From IMG/VR virus record IMGVR_UViG_3300032180_000035, positions 1-22,212 of that record: a DNA stretch of 22,212 bases; one strand, written 5' to 3'. Under the pieces are notes generated by a model, which worked only from the letters and a program-made list of their open reading frames with translations, made no database searches and was not told the origin of the DNA. The stretch is from a virus. The position numbers were made by a program, and so were the translations under genes. Position 1 is the first letter of the stretch. Every line of letters begins with the position of its first letter. Of the stretch, positions 5,491 through 22,182 are shown in pieces.

Positions 5491-5931
5491 ATGCGCACTC
5501 GCGATTTTTGGCTCGGTCTCACATTGGGCTTCTGGATCGGCGCACTCATGGGGATGGTCTCTATGGTCAAGGCCGAAGACCTCCCCAATGTCGTCTGGCT
5601 GACCTGCTATGACGGCGATACGTGCAGTTTCGATGTGATGCTGCCTGCCGTGTTCGGGAGCGCGATCGGGGTACGCTTGACCGGCATTGACGCGCCGGAG
5701 ATCAATGGGAAATGTCAGAAGGAACAGGATCTGGCGAAGGCGGCGCGGGACTTTCTCAAGGCGCAGATGCAGGACAAGACCATCGTGCTGCAACAGGTGT
5801 TCAGGGACAAGTACTTTCGCCTGGAAGCCGTCATCCTGGCGAACGGCGTGAATCTCAACCAATTGATGATCGAGAATGGCTACGCGGTGCCGTACAATGG
5901 CTCAGGACCACGAAAGGATTGGTATCTATGA
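5491..5931 (+). CDS. Exported staphylococcal-nuclease-like (thermonuclease) protein
   Basis: 146 residues. Residues 1-28 form a signal peptide or signal anchor (WLGLTLGFWIGALMGMV ... VKA). The mature part is an SNase/OB fold: YDGDT with D43, then VRLTGIDAPE with R62, D67 and E70, and DKYFRLEA with R110. These match D21, R35, D40, E43 and R87 of the classical enzyme, with identical spacing from R to D (5) and R to E (8), so the calcium and catalytic residues are complete. It would cut DNA or RNA in the periplasm or outside the cell. At 146 residues it is near the minimal length for the domain. It ends inside the ATGA of the next gene. Confidence 0.85.
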   Translation: MRTRDFWLGLTLGFWIGALMGMVSMVKAEDLPNVVWLTCYDGDTCSFDVMLPAVFGSAIGVRLTGIDAPEINGKCQKEQDLAKAARDFLKAQMQDKTIVLQQVFRDKYFRLEAVILANGVNLNQLMIENGYAVPYNGSGPRKDWYL

Positions 5932-7578: not shown

Positions 7579-8175
7579 ATGCCGTACACGGATGTGCAGA
7601 TCATCAACATGGCCTTGGCCCATCTGGGGCATACGCAGCTCATTGCCGCTCGCTCAGAATTGGCGAATGAAGCGGTCGTGGGAAATCTGTTCTATGAGGC
7701 CGCCGTCCAATACTGTCTCGAAGATTTCGCCTATGGCTTTGCAAGACAGTATGTGGCGCCCGGGTTGGTGGAGACCGATCCGAACGAGGACTGGCAATTC
7801 AGTTACCGCTACCCCTCCGACTGTGTGAAAGTGCGCCGCATCGTCACAAGGCTAGGACGACAGGACCCGAACCCGCCGCCCTTCAACATCGGTCAGGACG
7901 ATTCGGCGCGGCTTATTTATTCCAACACCGAGAACATGGTGATTGAATATACCAAACTCGTCACCAACACAGCCTTGTATCCTGCCATGTTCGCCGAGGC
8001 GGTGTCGTGGTGGCTCGCGGGTCTGATGTGTCCAGGGTTGGCCAAGGACCGGAAGCAAGCGGCGGGATGCTTTCAGATGTACAGTCTCGTGCTGCAGCGG
8101 GCACAGGCGAAGGACCGGAACGAATCGCAAGACCCGCCAGAACTGGAGTCTGAAGCGATCCGGGCGAGGGCCTGA
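7579..8175 (+). CDS. Tail tubular protein A (T7 gp11-like tail adaptor)
   Basis: 198 residues, close to the 196 of T7 gp11. In T7-type phages this protein forms the ring that joins the portal to the tail nozzle. The family signature is seen at the N-terminus (VQIINMALAHLGHTQLIAA), followed by the helix EAVVGNLFYEAAVQYCLEDF, the central QFSYRYPSDCVKVRRIV strand pair, and the C-terminal FAEAVSWWLAGLM helix. The neighbour, starting in the overlap TGATG, is the nozzle protein, as in T7. AAAGG lies about nine bases before the ATG. The C-terminal end is charged and probably flexible. Confidence 0.88.
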   Translation: MPYTDVQIINMALAHLGHTQLIAARSELANEAVVGNLFYEAAVQYCLEDFAYGFARQYVAPGLVETDPNEDWQFSYRYPSDCVKVRRIVTRLGRQDPNPPPFNIGQDDSARLIYSNTENMVIEYTKLVTNTALYPAMFAEAVSWWLAGLMCPGLAKDRKQAAGCFQMYSLVLQRAQAKDRNESQDPPELESEAIRARA

Positions 8176-10646
8176 TGCCGGACCTCATCCAACGGAATTT
8201 TGCTGGTGGGGAAGTCGCCCCAGCGCTGTTCGGTCGCGCGGATGTCGTCAAATATCAGACTGGACTCAAAACCTGCCGGAACTTCTTTGTGCGTCGGCAC
8301 GGGGGCGTGTCGAATCGCTCCGGTTCTCAATACATCACCCCACAGCGCGAGTCGGCATCTCGCGGACGTGTGATCAAGTTTGTATTCAACGCCACGCAAA
8401 CCTATGTACTGCTGTTCGAAAATCAGACCATGCGGGTGATCCAGAACGGGGTATTGCTCACCGTCCCAGGAGCCACGGCCTGGTCTGGTGCGACGAATTA
8501 TGTCGCCGGGGACGTCGCCGCGTCTGCGGGCGTCAATTACTACTGCATCCTGGCCCACCTCAATCACGTCCCGCCGAATGCGATCTACTGGTATGCGATG
8601 CCGGCCAATAATATCTATGAAGTGCCGACGCCCTTCCTCACGGCGGATCTCCAAACGCTGTATCGCAGCCAATCCGCCGATGTCATTACGCTCACGCATA
8701 CGGGCTATCAGATCCACGACCTCTCGCGCACGGGACACACGACCTGGGTCTTTACGCCGGTCGTGATGGTGCCGTCCATTGCCGCCCCCGCCGCACCCAC
8801 GCACGGAGCTGGCGCGGGAGCCTATCATTGGAAGGTGACGGCGGTCAAACTGGAGACCTATGAAGAAAGCGAACCGTCCCCGGCCAGTACCTCCAGCGTG
8901 GCGGCGACGAGCGGAGCCCCGATCACCTTGACCCTCTCCACGGTGACGGGGGCGCTGGAATACAACGTCTACAAAGATGAAGGCGCCGGGATCTATGGAT
9001 TCATCGGGACCTCCAGCGGCGCGACCTTCATTGATCGAGGGAGTATTCCGAATTATGATCTCACCCCGCCGGCCCCACGCGATCCGTTCATTGCAGGAAA
9101 CAGTCATCCAGCCATCTCAGGGTATCTCCAACAACGGAAGGGCTATGGCGGATTGCCGAGCAATCCTGAAACGGTCTACTTATCGAAAACCGGGCAGTAT
9201 AAGAACTTCGGGATTTCTTCTCCCTTGCAGGACGATGATGCCTGTACGTATCCGATTGCCTCCAAAGAAGTGAACACGATCCGGCACCTGATCGAGGTCA
9301 TGGAAAGTTTCATCTTCACCTCCGGAGTCGAATGGGATGCCCAGGGTGGACTCGATGGACAACTCACACCCCGATCACCGGGACTCAAACCCAAGAGCTA
9401 TTACGGCTCCTCGGTCGTGCCTCCCGTGGTGATCGGGGACAACGTGCTCTATATCCAAGATCGAGGGAGTCTCGTGCGGGATCTGAACTACGATGCCCGC
9501 ACGAGCGGCTATCAAGGCCGAGACCTGTCGGTCTTTGCGCCACACTTGTTTGCGGGGAAGACGATCGAGCATTGGGACTACGCGCAAAATCCCGATTCTA
9601 TTGTCTGGGCGGTGCTGAACGATGGCTCCTTGCTCGGGCTCACCTATCTGCGTGAGCATGAAATCTGGGGTTGGCATCGGCACGATACGGATGGCTTCTA
9701 CGAGGATGTGGTCTGTGTGCCGGAAGGCACGGAGGATGCGGTGTATGTGCTGGTTCGGCGCACCATCGGCGGGGTGACGAAACGGTACCTCGAGCGATTC
9801 GCTACCCGTCATGTGACGGATGTGATGGTCGACGCCATTTTTATGGATAGTTACCTGACCTACGACGGGCGCAACACGTCGGCCACCACGATGACGCTCT
9901 CGGGTGGATCTACATGGCTCTACACCGAAACACTTACCCTTACAGCCAGTACAGCATTCTTCGTGGTGGGTGATGTAGGCAACGCGATCCGCTTGACCCT
10001 CTCCACGACGACCTGGACGCCGGAAGGCAATAGCCAGACGACCACGGAGCATCTGATTCTGACCATTATCGGATACACCAGCGCAACGGTCGTGACGGTG
10101 AACGCCACTCGTACGGTGCCCGTGGCCTTTCGGAACGTGGCCTTCACGAACTGGGCGCGTGGCGCGGATGAATTTGCGGGGGCGGATCATCTCGAAGGGA
10201 AAGCGCTCGCCATTCTCGCGGATGGGAACGTGCTCAAGAACGGCATCGATGCCCCGTTGACCATCGTGACGGCCGGGGCCTTTACCACGGAGCGTCCGGT
10301 GTTTGTGCTGCATGCGGGCCTCCCCTATTGCAGTGACTTTGAACTGTTGGATCTGGAACTGCTGGGGGGGGAGACGATCACGACCAAGCAGAAGTCGATC
10401 AATCAGATCGCGCTGTTTCTTGAATTCTCGCGTGGCGTGTTTGCCGGCAACGATAGCGGGCATCTCTTTGAAATGAAGCAACGGAGCACGCCGATTCCTG
10501 GCGGGCCCTATCCGTTGGTGACGGGGAAATTCACTGTGTCGATGAGTGCGGCGTGGGGGAACGGGGGAAACGTGTTTGTCCGGCAGCGCGATCCGCTCCC
10601 GCTGACCATTCTCAACGCGGTGCCGGTCGTGGAAGTGGGCGGTTAA
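8175..10646 (+). CDS. Tail tubular protein B (T7 gp12-like tail nozzle)
   Basis: 823 residues, against 794 in T7 gp12. It should form the hexameric nozzle through which DNA leaves. The N-terminus is diagnostic: QRNFAGGEVAPALFGRAD, then YQTGLKTCRNFFVRRHGGV and NRSGSQYI, which are conserved in this family. A FN3/Ig-like segment is visible at about residues 205-285 (HWKVTAVKLETYEESEPSP ... ALEYNVYKDEG). Typical nozzle features such as NTIRHLIEVMESFIFTSG and FAPHLFAGKTIEHWDYAQNP follow. An eight-G run lies at 10364-10371 within an intact frame. Coupled to the upstream gene by TGATG. Confidence 0.9.
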   Translation: MPDLIQRNFAGGEVAPALFGRADVVKYQTGLKTCRNFFVRRHGGVSNRSGSQYITPQRESASRGRVIKFVFNATQTYVLLFENQTMRVIQNGVLLTVPGATAWSGATNYVAGDVAASAGVNYYCILAHLNHVPPNAIYWYAMPANNIYEVPTPFLTADLQTLYRSQSADVITLTHTGYQIHDLSRTGHTTWVFTPVVMVPSIAAPAAPTHGAGAGAYHWKVTAVKLETYEESEPSPASTSSVAATSGAPITLTLSTVTGALEYNVYKDEGAGIYGFIGTSSGATFIDRGSIPNYDLTPPAPRDPFIAGNSHPAISGYLQQRKGYGGLPSNPETVYLSKTGQYKNFGISSPLQDDDACTYPIASKEVNTIRHLIEVMESFIFTSGVEWDAQGGLDGQLTPRSPGLKPKSYYGSSVVPPVVIGDNVLYIQDRGSLVRDLNYDARTSGYQGRDLSVFAPHLFAGKTIEHWDYAQNPDSIVWAVLNDGSLLGLTYLREHEIWGWHRHDTDGFYEDVVCVPEGTEDAVYVLVRRTIGGVTKRYLERFATRHVTDVMVDAIFMDSYLTYDGRNTSATTMTLSGGSTWLYTETLTLTASTAFFVVGDVGNAIRLTLSTTTWTPEGNSQTTTEHLILTIIGYTSATVVTVNATRTVPVAFRNVAFTNWARGADEFAGADHLEGKALAILADGNVLKNGIDAPLTIVTAGAFTTERPVFVLHAGLPYCSDFELLDLELLGGETITTKQKSINQIALFLEFSRGVFAGNDSGHLFEMKQRSTPIPGGPYPLVTGKFTVSMSAAWGNGGNVFVRQRDPLPLTILNAVPVVEVGG

Positions 10647-13182: not shown

Positions 13183-16100
13183 ATGGCTGGTGCCCTTGAC
13201 GATGCCCTGGCCGCCGTGGCGGATACGCCGGAGAGTCTGGCCGATACCCAATCCTCGCCTTCTTATGCGATGCCCAGACCCTCTGCGCCTCCGAACCTGG
13301 ATGAGTCCGTGCAGGAGTATCTGAGCCAAGGCGAAGCTGAGCAGCTACGCGGCGTGACGGCCGTCGGGGTCAAGACCGAACCGTCGAAGGCGCTGAAGGT
13401 CCTGCAACTCACCGGCAAGACCGGTCTGCCGCGGGATTTCATTGAGCGCAACCTGGATTTTGTGAATCAGGAGACGGCGAAGCAGGATCTGAATCCCACA
13501 CAACTCCTCACGGACAGCCCCGCGTTCGCGGCATGGCTCTCGGAGCATCCCGATCATGTGGCAGCGGCACGGCCCGATGCCACGGCCCTGTCGTTCATTG
13601 AAAAGCAACTCCGCAACATTCCTGCGCAGTTTGCACAGGGCCAGCGCACGGTCGAGTATGGGAACGTCATGCTGGGGGTCGTGCAGGGGCTCCTGGATCA
13701 CACGGATGTGACGGCCCTACGAAAGCGGCAAGCCGAACTCGAAGCCGAGATGTCCAAGCCGGATGAGACGGGCCTGTCTGACATGCCGGGACTTGCCGGG
13801 GTCCTTCAGCGAGCCCCTGGCTGGATGGCCCAGCAGCTACCCATTTTAGCCTCCACCTTGGAGGAACAGGTGAAGACAGGGGCCAAGGGCGTGGCGGTGG
13901 GCGCTCTCGCTGGCGGGGCAGCGGGGGGCCTTCCGGGGGCTACAGTAGGCGGTCTGGCGGTCGGCGGAGCCTCCTGGCGGTTGGGGGCGGCGATCAATTC
14001 AGCCAAGATGGAGTTTGCCCAGGCCTTTGGCGACTATGAAAAGCTCACGGATGCCGATGGGTTACCGCTCGACCAACAGACCGCCATGGGCTTGGCCGGC
14101 ATTGTAGGGGTGCTGAACGGGGCGATCGACGGATTCTTTGGAGTGGAAGGGCTGACTGCGAAACTTCCGGGCATCAATCAGTTTACGCGCCAGGGGATCA
14201 AGGACCTGCTCCGGACCCCCACGACGAGCCGGGCGCTCCTCTCCTACGCCAAGACCGTCGGCCAAGTCATGGCGGTGGAAGGGGCGACTGAAGCCCTGCA
14301 GATGTATATCACGAAAGCGGGAGGGGTCGCGCTCCAGGCCGTGAAGGATGGCGGCTCGCCCGCCGAGTGGTTGGGGAAAATCTTCAGTCCAGAGAACCTG
14401 CAACAGGCGGCGACGGAAGCCGAAGCGGGAGCCTTCGGCGGCGGGGGCATTGCCACGGTCATGGCCACACCCCAAGTGGCACAGGATCTCTATCGGGTCA
14501 GGCAGGCCAACAAGGCCAAGCAGGCATTCGAAACCATCGGTGAAGCCATATCGCAGACCACCTTCCATAAGGAACTCCCTGATCAGTTGAAGGATATTAT
14601 CGCCCGAGGGACGAAAGACGGGCCCATCGAAACCCTCTATGTGCCAGAGCATGCCTTTAGCGAATACTTCCAGAAAGAAGGCGTGGATCCTCGCGAGGTG
14701 TACAAGGAAGTCACGGGTGACGCCGAGGCCTACGATCAGTCCGTGGAGACGGGTGCCGACTTGCCCATCAAGACCGCCGACTATGCGCAGAAGCTCGCCG
14801 GCACGAAACACAACGCCTTCTTTGCCAACGAACTGCGGACCTCGGTGGATGCGATGAACGGGTTTGAAGCGGCAGAATGGGTCACGCAACAGGACGAAAT
14901 CGACAAGGCGGCGGCGCAACAGCAGGGCGTCAAGACCGATCTCGCGGGAGATCCAGGTGCACAGGTGCGGCTCGATATTGCCGGCCAGCTCACCGCCTTG
15001 GGATTTGATCCTCGCGTGGTCGATCAGTATGCGGCCCTCTTTGAGGCCCGCTATCGAGCCAGGGCGGAACGGCGCGGGCTGGGCGAGACGGCGGCGGATC
15101 TGTTTGCGCAGCAGAACCTGCACATCACGCGACCCGTGCCAGCCGTCCTCCAGCAACTCGGCAAGACCACAGAACTGGACACACTCCTCGATCGGCTCCG
15201 GAGCGGCGATCTGCCCAAGCCCATCGACGTGTTTGGGCAATCGCTGACGGAGTTTTTGAAAGAGAAGGGCGGCCTCCATGATCAGGGAGGAGAACTCGCG
15301 GCACGCAACATTGACCAGGAACGCAAACCGTTTACCAAAACGCTGATTAAGAAAACGGGCAAGACATTAGATGAAGCCGCGCAGATGGCGGTCGAAGCAG
15401 GCTATCTGGAGGAGCGGGACATTCCCACGTTGCTTGATGCCTTGGATCAGGAAGCCCGAGGGACGCCGGTTTATGCCGTGGGAAAAGAGAACGCGCGCGC
15501 CTTCGACGTGCAACAGAATCTGGAATCATTGAAAGCCTACTTGGACGCCAAGGGTATAGATCTGGCTACGTCCACCAACCAACAGATCAAACAGATGTTG
15601 GGAGAAGCGGTGCAGCAGCCCTTATCGACTGAAGAAGTGCAGACGTTTGCGCAGACCTTCCAAGCCAGCGATACACCCAAGGGCTCCATCACGTTTGGGA
15701 GTCAATCGATCAACATCAAACTTTTGGAGAAGGCCGATCTCTCGACATTCATCCATGAAACCGGACATCTCTATTTGAACGAACTCCTGGACGATGCCAA
15801 GGCCGTGGCAGCCGTGCCGGTCGAATCACGGACGCCAATCCAGATCCAACTGCTCGCTGACCTCGCGACGATTCATTCCTGGCTCGGCAATAACGGTGAA
15901 GCCAAGCGGATCACCGTCGAACAGCATGAGAAGTTTGCGCGTGGCTTCGAGGCCTACACGATGGAAGGCAAGTCTCCCTCTCAGGCCATGCGGGAAGTCT
16001 TTGCGGCCTTCCGCCAATGGTTGATCCAGGCCTATCGCTCGCTCACGACGGCACCGCTCAACGTGAAGCTGACCAAGCAGGTTCGTGAAGTGATGGACCG

Positions 16101-20934: not shown

Positions 20935-21009
20935 CTAGCCCAACGCCACGATCAGCGCAGCGGGAATGACGGTATCGCCCATGAGGAAACCGAGCCAGAA
21001 GGAACTCAT
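20935..21009 (-). CDS. 24-residue hydrophobic peptide coupled to the integrase
   Basis: On the minus strand an ATG at 21009-21007 overlaps the integrase stop (ATGA), with GGAGGGG just upstream inside the last integrase codons. It encodes MSSFWLGFLMGDTVIPAALI plus four residues and stops at TAG 20937-20935. The peptide is almost wholly hydrophobic with one Asp, as in very small membrane proteins. Shine-Dalgarno, overlap and hydrophobicity support it; the small size makes chance possible. Confidence 0.4.
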   Translation of the reverse strand: MSSFWLGFLMGDTVIPAALIVALG

Positions 21010-21761
21010 GTCCCCTCCATCTCTTCACACTGTCGCCCGTGCTTCTCTGATTTCAGTTTTCCCAGTGTTGGGAAGACCCTATCCGCATGCCGAGTCAACG
21101 CCGCCCGTATGGTGGTTTGATCCGCTTTCGCATAAATTTGCGTGGTGGACACGGAGCTATGATGGAGAATTTCCTTGATGACCATCAAGTTCTCCCCACT
21201 GGACACCATCATCGTCGCACAGGTGCGACGGAGATCGCGAATCTGTACATCTTGAATCCCCGCCTCCCATCGGATCTTCTTCCACCAATAGCGCACGGCG
21301 GTCCTCGACCACGGCACCTCGGGGGTATCACCGGGGAAGAAATAGGGACCCTCATTCGGGAGCGAGGCCAAGAGCTCACAACTCCTGGGCGAGAGAGCCA
21401 GCAGTTGGCGACGGCCGTTCTTCGTGACCGTTTTATGCCAGAAGCCTTGCCTCAGATCGACGTGCGCCCGTTGCATCTTCCGGGCTTCACTCATGCGCGG
21501 CCCTTCCAACAGCAGGAACGAGATATAGACGGCAATCTTTTGGGGATAGCGATCCAGGATGGCGCGTAGTCGCGTCCATTCGTCTGGGAGCAGAAAGCGT
21601 TCTCGCGCGCGCGCTCGTTTCCGGCGTGGACGAGCCAGCAGGAGATCGAAACAAGCACTCAACCGCTGCCAGGGCTTCATAGGGGGCATTGTACAATTCT
21701 TCTTCCAGCACTCTCTATCCCGCAAACGTAGCACCTGATTCCTCTTGAGTCTGTAGGCCAA
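21006..21761 (-). CDS. int: Tyrosine recombinase (phage integrase), short N-terminus
   Basis: 251 residues from a TTG at 21761; the ATG at 21689 (227 residues) is the next good start and I cannot decide. The catalytic domain is clear (numbering from TTG): R89 in LEGPRMSEARKM, K114 in VTKNGRRQL, R178 in IRDLRRTCATMM, H201 and Y210 in LHHSSVSTTQIYAK. The box II histidine (HxxR) is replaced by R175. Upstream of the catalytic domain only about 55 residues remain, so the arm-binding domain and most of the core-binding domain of usual 350-400-residue integrases are missing. It therefore may be a compact or a truncated enzyme. It would recombine attP with a host tRNA; a tRNA fragment lies 21 bases upstream. 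Confidence 0.85.
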   Translation of the reverse strand: MAYRLKRNQVLRLRDRECWKKNCTMPPMKPWQRLSACFDLLLARPRRKRARARERFLLPDEWTRLRAILDRYPQKIAVYISFLLLEGPRMSEARKMQRAHVDLRQGFWHKTVTKNGRRQLLALSPRSCELLASLPNEGPYFFPGDTPEVPWSRTAVRYWWKKIRWEAGIQDVQIRDLRRTCATMMVSSGENLMVIKEILHHSSVSTTQIYAKADQTTIRAALTRHADRVFPTLGKLKSEKHGRQCEEMEGT

Positions 21762-21782
21762 TCCCTCAGGCCCTTGCTCAAT

Positions 21783-21807
21783 CTCTATCCAATTGAGCTA
21801 CGGGCGC
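21783..21807 (-). other. tRNA 5' half (tRNA-Arg-like): candidate attachment core
   Basis: On the minus strand, 25 bases starting GCGCCCGTAGCTCAATTG match the 5' half of a typical bacterial tRNA-Arg: acceptor strand GCGCCCG, TA, D-stem GCTC, D-loop AATTGGATA, D-stem GAG. After that the sequence stops resembling a tRNA: no anticodon arm and no GGTTCGAATCC T-arm follow. A tRNA piece directly beside an integrase gene is the normal sign of an attachment site. The direction is the same as int. Most tRNA-using phages carry the 3' part; here it is the 5' part. Confidence 0.6.
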
Positions 21808-21817
21808 ACCCTCTGTA

Positions 21818-21868
21818 GCCCAACTCAGACCGGAGCTTATCTCCGGCGGGGGTGTTCCTGAGTTGGGC
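21818..21868 (-). terminator. Nested hairpin at the 3' end of the RHH gene
   Basis: Perfect 11-base arms GCCCAACTCAG (21818-21828) and CTGAGTTGGGC (21858-21868) enclose a second hairpin CCGGAG/CTCCGG (21830-21835/21841-21846, 5-base loop). No T-run follows on either strand, so it is not a classical Rho-independent terminator. It could stop or slow transcription between the RHH gene and int, protect an RNA end, or be a recombinase arm site at the attachment locus. Confidence 0.45.
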
Positions 21869-22034
21869 GCGGTGGGGTGGGTGGGCGTGCGCGTTCCTTA
21901 TGTTCCACAATACATTCTTGGATGTACCGGCTCTTACTGGTCCGTCTCATCTGGCTGCGCTCGTGCTCCATCCATTCATAGATATCAGGATCGAGGTACG
22001 TTTTGACCTCAATCAGGCGGATTGTGGGCATCAT
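21837..22034 (-). CDS. Small ribbon-helix-helix (Arc/CopG-like) transcription regulator
   Basis: 65 residues from ATG at 22034, with AAAGGGGG six bases upstream; a second ATG follows at once. The pattern is that of an RHH DNA-binding protein: a short N-terminal strand (TIRLIEVKTYLD), helix A (PDIYEWMEHERSQMRR), a turn with TSKS, and helix B (RYIQECIVEHKER). The tail is Pro/Arg-rich (PPTPPRPTQEHPRRR). RHH dimers bind short tandem boxes, and 10-base-spaced GGCTAC boxes lie in its own promoter region and in the divergent promoter. It lies upstream of int on the same strand, so it is a good candidate for a lysogeny or excision regulator. Confidence 0.65.
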   Translation of the reverse strand: MMPTIRLIEVKTYLDPDIYEWMEHERSQMRRTSKSRYIQECIVEHKERARPPTPPRPTQEHPRRR

Positions 22035-22056
22035 GCGTCACCCCCTTTCCCATTGT

Positions 22057-22083
22057 AGGCTACTTGCGGCTGCATAGTAGCCG
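22057..22083. promoter_or_regulatory. Left operator: GGCTAC boxes over the RHH promoter start
   Basis: AGGCTAC at 22057-22063 and a near copy CGGCTGC at 22067-22073, ten bases apart, plus an inverted copy TAGTAGCCG at 22075-22083 that overlaps the -10. The 10-base step puts the two direct boxes on one face of the DNA helix, as expected for RHH dimers binding side by side. Confidence 0.5.
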
Positions 22084-22102
22084 TTATGGGCGTTCGCGTC
22101 AA
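22074..22102 (-). promoter_or_regulatory. Sigma70-type promoter for the RHH gene
   Basis: On the minus strand, TTGACG (22102-22097), a 17-base spacer, then TACTAT (22079-22074), followed by a short leader and the RHH Shine-Dalgarno. Both hexamers are close to consensus with ideal spacing. GGCTAC-type boxes lie at and downstream of the -10, which suggests autoregulation. Confidence 0.6.
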
Positions 22103-22103
22103 T

Positions 22104-22122
22104 CCCCCTCTAATGTAGGGGG
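22104..22122. repeat. Small hairpin between the divergent promoters
   Basis: CCCCCT (22104-22109) and AGGGGG (22117-22122) form a 6-base stem with a 7-base loop, followed on the plus strand by a T-rich ATTTATTTT. It lies between the two -35 elements. It could be a weak plus-strand terminator or another protein-binding site. Confidence 0.35.
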
Positions 22123-22153
22123 CGATTTATTTTCAACAGGGGTGATTTTGTGC

Positions 22154-22182
22154 TTGACAGGTCGGCTACTTTCGGCTACTCT
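22154..22182 (+). promoter_or_regulatory. Sigma70-type rightward promoter, divergent from the RHH promoter
   Basis: TTGACA at 22154-22159, a 17-base spacer, then TACTCT at 22177-22182. It reads out of the window to the right, so the genes it drives are not seen. Two copies of TCGGCTACT occupy the spacer and the -10, a position where a bound repressor would block RNA polymerase. Confidence 0.6.
22162..22180. promoter_or_regulatory. Right operator: two TCGGCTACT boxes in the rightward promoter
   Basis: TCGGCTACT at 22162-22170 and again at 22172-22180, an exact direct repeat with a 10-base period, placed in the spacer and -10 of the rightward promoter. The core GGCTAC is shared with the left operator. 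Confidence 0.6.

Follow-up and report, generated by a model that had tools for sequence, protein, structure and literature searches.

The 25-nt piece of a tRNA-Arg gene that adjoins a tyrosine integrase gene in a podovirus-like DNA fragment probably (roughly 60%) serves, or served until recently, as the core of an attachment site (attP) in a podovirus that is related to the BPP-1 group and is, or once was, temperate. The DNA analysed, hereafter the window, is the complete record IMGVR_UViG_3300032180_000035, a linear, metagenome-derived virus fragment of 22,212 bases that does not reach the other end of the element. We favor the attP reading because the match is exact, present in a single copy and directly adjacent to the integrase gene, because the spacer of an inverted repeat ends exactly where the tRNA identity ends, because similar sites occur in other viral contigs (L112, L102, L017 and L057), and because both the catalytic residues and a 250-codon frame of the integrase are intact. 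It has to be weighed against searches that yielded neither a host nor a second att copy, flanks without significant arm repeats, an integrase without the N-terminal domains of its relatives, a closest phage relative without an integrase and a stable hairpin ahead of the integrase gene.

A tRNA-Arg 5' fragment next to an integrase gene

The plus strand of the window carries a podovirus-like tail and internal-virion module, the products of which include nozzle-like, gp14-like, 2,117-aa internal and tail-fibre-like proteins. Relatives of this module are present in phage zth2-2, Limnohabitans phage DC33, Bordetella phage BPP-1 and IMG/VR contigs, including the closest phage relative, contig L029 (65% identity), which lacks an integrase. 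The structural genes of the window are open frames. The nozzle-like protein (8175-10646) shows a weak match to CBM_5_12 (carbohydrate-binding) at residues 102-129, and 5491-5931, within the structural/lysis module, encodes a protein that resembles staphylococcal nuclease and has a putative signal-like N-terminus. Relatives of the structural proteins were detected at 15 loci in genomes, with no informative integration site among those 15. An Rfam scan of the window gave no match. The terminal 1.2 kb is organized on the minus strand as a promoter-like site, a 65-aa open reading frame (ORF), a nested hairpin, the tRNA-Arg 5' fragment and the integrase gene; direct reading of the sequence bears out this order and its coordinates as given in the initial annotation.

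The fragment (GCGCCCGTAGCTCAATTGGATAGAG, 21783..21807, minus strand) is identical to nucleotides 1-25 of a bacterial tRNA-Arg gene, in agreement with the tRNA match that had been claimed, and its only exact copy within the 22,212-base record is the one at 21807-21783. The 3' half of the tRNA is absent from the window (ARAGORN: 0 genes in 22 kb). In IMG/VR, 27 contigs share a 24-mer of the piece, for the most part within complete tRNAs that are Arg in nearly all cases, whereas four of these contigs (L008, L017, L023 and L026) contain a 5' fragment only; by our estimate, the number of random 24-mer matches in the IMG/VR collection is far below 1. The identity stops inside the D-stem, at about position 25, where an A takes the place of the C needed to pair with G10. 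If the piece is the attachment core, the crossover must therefore lie within these first 25 nt.

A core-type inverted repeat, GCTCAAT-TGGATAGAG-ATTGAGC (21776..21798, minus strand), straddles this boundary. Its arms are perfect over 7 bp, or extend to 9 bp with one mismatch; the left arm and the spacer belong to the tRNA and the right arm is phage DNA that starts exactly where the identity ends. Perfect 7-bp repeats of such spacing occur only four times in the whole 22-kb window, and the repeat gave no match when used as a DNA pattern in IMG/VR. We take it as the core-type site and propose strand exchange within 21783-21791, in the D-arm. That the piece is a chance match or a captured stretch of tRNA without a role in integration, such as a transduced fragment, would fit the lack of a second copy in the record and of a host match, but is highly improbable given 25 exact nucleotides that include the tRNA start, the adjoining integrase gene and the inverted repeat at the boundary.

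The best repeat common to both flanks of the core is a 12-bp direct repeat (TTGGSCTACAGA) at 21823-21812 and 21761-21750 (span 21750..21823, minus strand). Its copies are centred on the proposed crossover and are weak candidate arm sites, as 17% of random flanks equal this repeat; tested against random flanks, the window core has no significant arm repeats. A copy of GGATAGAG within the integrase gene (repeat D10) was rejected since it corresponds to chance expectation. Searches of IMG/VR, GTDB and genomes turned up neither a host or attB nor a second copy of the att site or a relative in integrated form. A pattern describing D-arm fragments had 0 matches in 398 and in 297 genomes, a search of low power as the tRNA variant was present in only 4 of 40 genomes. 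Phage DNA is favored to the right of the core, since the promoter scan of the window detected nothing resembling a tRNA promoter immediately ahead of it and the right side yielded no host-like gene.

An integrase reduced to its catalytic domain

The integrase gene (21006..21761, minus strand) encodes a tyrosine integrase consisting of the catalytic domain only (PF00589, 6e-20), in a 250-codon open frame that keeps the catalytic residues R, K, R, H and Y. Translation may start at TTG 21761, GTG 21734 (preceded by the Shine-Dalgarno sequence AGAGG) or ATG 21689, while upstream the frame has no stop codon as far as 21797, within the tRNA fragment, where the TAG of the tRNA closes it. The arm-binding and core-binding domains present in all close relatives are lacking; relatives such as L086 and L032, of the Arm-DNA-bind_3 / Phage_integrase class, carry the arm-binding domain PF13356. 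About 45 aa precede the catalytic domain in the window, versus at least 179 (median 222) in the best 80 IMG/VR relatives. Nearly all relatives align only from residue 37 onwards, and those from 398 Pseudomonadota genomes and the best 80 in IMG/VR show no similarity to residues 1-36 or more of the window protein. A global alignment of the N-terminus seemed suggestive, but HMM and shuffle tests gave no homology of residues 1-51 to the relatives, and the same residues are unfolded in the structure model (pLDDT below 50). Two short genomic relatives proved to be truncated at contig ends. The window integrase is the only catalytic-only one when set against the best 80 viral relatives and every genomic relative that does not lie at a contig end. 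Exact peptide patterns retrieved no integrase relatives from IMG/VR and GTDB. The missing domains, the proposed D-arm crossover and the commonness of a tRNA followed by an integrase gene are points that were absent from the initial annotation.

The missing arm sites and the missing arm-binding domain fit each other, and this would be expected of a minimal system as well as of a decaying one. Without arm domains and significant arm repeats, the integrase may be defective; judged from its sequence, it could require a DNA-binding partner, work as a minimal recombinase or already be decaying. In the last case the tRNA piece would be a fossil site beside an integrase gene that has lost its N-terminal half (~180 aa), with decayed arm sites, in an effectively lytic phage and without any promoter swap. 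We regard such a relic as unlikely, though it deserves serious attention: the uniqueness of the catalytic-only form, its unfolded residues 1-51, the absence of arm repeats from the window and the lack of an integrase in L029 all speak for it, but the catalytic frame and residues are intact, the exact tRNA identity and the perfect core repeat have been kept, and the structural genes remain open frames.

The integrase without N-terminal domains, with a frame open into the tRNA piece, could also be read as one half of a split integrase, as in pTN3 and SSV. The window would then be a prophage junction with host DNA on its right side, and the ORF would be an int(C) cut at the core and read from the host tRNA promoter, with int(N) at the other end of the element. 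In pTN3-like archaeal integrases, the attB is a tRNA 5' half, the re-formed tRNA is split from its promoter and int(C), which has the same layout with a tRNA 5' half, may use the tRNA promoter (PMC8371274, PMC5495485). The window resembles pTN3/TKV4 of the Thermococcales in the proposed use of a tRNA 5' part, in the separation of the re-formed tRNA from its promoter that would follow, and in the possibility that the catalytic part is read from a host tRNA promoter; compared with the tRNA 5' half that forms the attB of pTN3 and SSV, its fragment is a tRNA 5' end of only 25 nt. However, pTN3/TKV4 is an archaeal plasmid with a 41-bp core and an attP inside the integrase gene, whereas the window represents a BPP-1-group-related phage with a 25-bp core and an integrase frame that is stopped in the core, so that its putative attP does not lie inside the frame as it does for the suicidal integrases of pTN3 and SSV; nor was an int(N) found in the window. 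The TAG that closes the frame is part of the tRNA fragment and would normally be kept by the re-formed tRNA. There is no homology between the core and the catalytic domain, the failure of the promoter scan to detect a tRNA promoter ahead of the core also argues against host DNA at the right, and a review gives self-splitting integrases as known only in archaea. A split integrase is therefore very unlikely here.

Comparable attachment sites and known systems

The claim that the tRNA piece is a crossover core is backed by comparable attP sites in other IMG/VR contigs, each close to an integrase gene and flanked by arm repeats. The closest counterpart is a marine-type phage contig, L112 (IMGVR_UViG_3300006916_000550), which shows this layout more cleanly: at 13298-14835, a small gene, a 24-nt tRNA-Ala 5' fragment and an integrase gene follow each other on the same strand, and the fragment ends at the same D-stem position as that of the window. 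It differs from the window in its tRNA, in an integrase that carries the arm-binding domain and in a 23-bp repeat, ATGACGGATATATGACGGAT(A/G)GG, that flanks the core on both sides. In L102 (IMGVR_UViG_3300006143_000018, 491-1970), an integrase gene, a promoter, a 25-nt tRNA-Arg 5' piece and a terminator are present, and the core is flanked on either side by 27-bp repeats. Here, unlike in the window, a good phage promoter (TTGACT-17-TATATT with a TG extension, that is, an extended -10) directly precedes the tRNA piece, so that the host tRNA that this phage would interrupt is provided with a phage promoter. The tRNA-Arg 5' fragments of L017 and L008/L057 reach the anticodon, with the integrase gene before the core and flanking repeats of 15 and 28 bp. 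At all four comparison sites, the arm repeats (15-28 bp) were matched by 0 of 60 nulls each. In L057 (922-2538), a 538-aa integrase frame passes through its own tRNA-Arg core, and integration should thus exchange the C-terminus of the integrase. A 410-aa ORF of L026 that had been read by eye as an integrase was discarded, as Pfam and NCBIfam do not confirm it.

Judged by these layouts, 5'-restoring attachment sites, including those in the D-arm, do occur in viruses. The initial annotation had called a phage restoring the 5' end unusual, which agrees with the Islander collection, in which 159 of 3,919 islands leave a tRNA 5' fragment (PMC4383910). In these islands, as in the window, a tyrosine integrase gene adjoins the tRNA fragment and the element restores the 5' end, but their crossovers were assigned to the anticodon or the T/junction region, whereas the identity in the window ends in the D-stem. 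Among integrases located beside a tRNA, the order of tRNA followed by integrase gene is in turn the most frequent one (736 of 1,273), and a coupling of integrase genes to tRNA promoters was put forward earlier (PMC2951348); an integrase gene behind a tRNA promoter is hence not special in itself. Prophages of the KplE1/IntS type ('STI') similarly have the tRNA before the integrase gene on the same strand and attL ahead of it, but they use the 3' end of argW and the integrase's own promoter lies over attL, whereas only a tRNA 5' half is present in the window (PMC2951348). The T7-like cyanophages P-SSP7 and S-TIP37 are likewise podoviruses with an integrase and an attP that reproduces a portion of a host tRNA exactly, and their integration has been detected by PCR; in contrast to the window, their core is located downstream of the integrase gene and matches tRNA-Leu (PMC8776855). 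In tRNA-dependent lysogeny, the phage carries a complete tRNA gene that replaces the disrupted one (PMC10865867); the 22 kb of this fragmentary phage genome contain no complete tRNA.

The layout is thus rare but already known, from 5'-fragment islands and from the promoter exchange of pTN3, and the window adds the D-arm end and the catalytic-only integrase to it. What appears new or unusual is that attP sites with a tRNA 5' fragment ending in the D-arm turn up again in a pair of unrelated IMG/VR contigs (L102 and L112), with an end point shared with the window that is partly due to selection, as the search pattern demanded divergence at base 25, and that the integrase of the window is catalytic-only.

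A proposed promoter exchange upon integration

The small ORF (65 aa, 21837..22034, minus strand) has a Shine-Dalgarno-like sequence (AAGGGGGT) and is preceded by the promoter-like site TTGACG-17-TACTAT (22074..22102, minus strand), which matches the consensus at 9 of 12 positions, a quality of which ~0.9 sites are expected by chance in the window. No Pfam, PHROG, NCBIfam or PDB family matches the ORF, and no relatives were found in phages, plasmids or IMG/VR. Its AlphaFold model contains two helices at modest confidence (pLDDT 70) and has no Foldseek match. With no family database match, the label 'RHH' rests on this two-helix model, and the ORF is treated here as an unconfirmed, RHH-like candidate regulator. 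Four GGCTACT/AGTAGCC motifs, at 22058, 22076, 22164 and 22174 (22058..22180), lie over and upstream of the promoter-like site as candidate autoregulatory operators; four of the seven copies in the window fall within these 125 bp around the promoter, a cluster that suggests autoregulation of the small ORF. Similar GGCTAC repeats also lie close to the core of L026, an unrelated contig.

Between the small ORF and the core lies a nested hairpin (21818..21868, minus strand) with outer 11-bp arms GCCCAACTCAG/CTGAGTTGGGC and the inner stem-loop CCGGAG-ATAAG-CTCCGG. It is highly stable (-31.5 kcal/mol, z = -4.8; 0 of 200 shuffles are as stable), includes the TAA of the small ORF and lacks a U-tract. 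Transcription from the small-ORF promoter would have to pass this hairpin before arriving at the tRNA piece or the integrase gene, and its run-through to the integrase gene is uncertain.

Under the attP reading, the integrase would recombine the core with the 5' end of a tRNA-Arg gene in the host, the strands being exchanged in the D-arm (TGGATAGAG). Integration would place the host tRNA promoter and 5' half directly ahead of the integrase gene at one prophage end; at the other, the small ORF, hairpin and core would be joined to the host 3' half, with the phage supplying the tRNA 5' half and its transcription, and the hairpin may separate or process the small-ORF mRNA and the tRNA. If recombination takes place at the core, this exchange of upstream regions follows from the orientation of core and integrase gene. 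The promoter swap proposed in the initial annotation therefore stands as far as the geometry behind the host tRNA promoter and the 5'-restoring layout are concerned, whereas we infer the switch itself, in which integration would occur and the integrase gene and tRNA would change promoters. It is doubtful that all of this forms a minimal system, with a catalytic-only integrase, a symmetric D-arm core, no arm sites and perhaps a small DNA-binding protein, in which integration brings the integrase gene under a growth-rate-controlled tRNA promoter and the host tRNA under that of the phage regulator.

In 5'-restoring phages, the host tRNA would depend on a phage promoter while the integrase gene would come under the host tRNA promoter. 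If true, the capacity for excision would be coupled to growth rate, and phages such as L102, in which a partial tRNA is preceded by a promoter of its own, would be explained. The usual three-site classification seems to have no place for D-arm attachment sites, which a search designed around anticodon and T-arm fragments would overlook. A catalytic-only phage integrase would test the minimum needs of a tyrosine recombinase.
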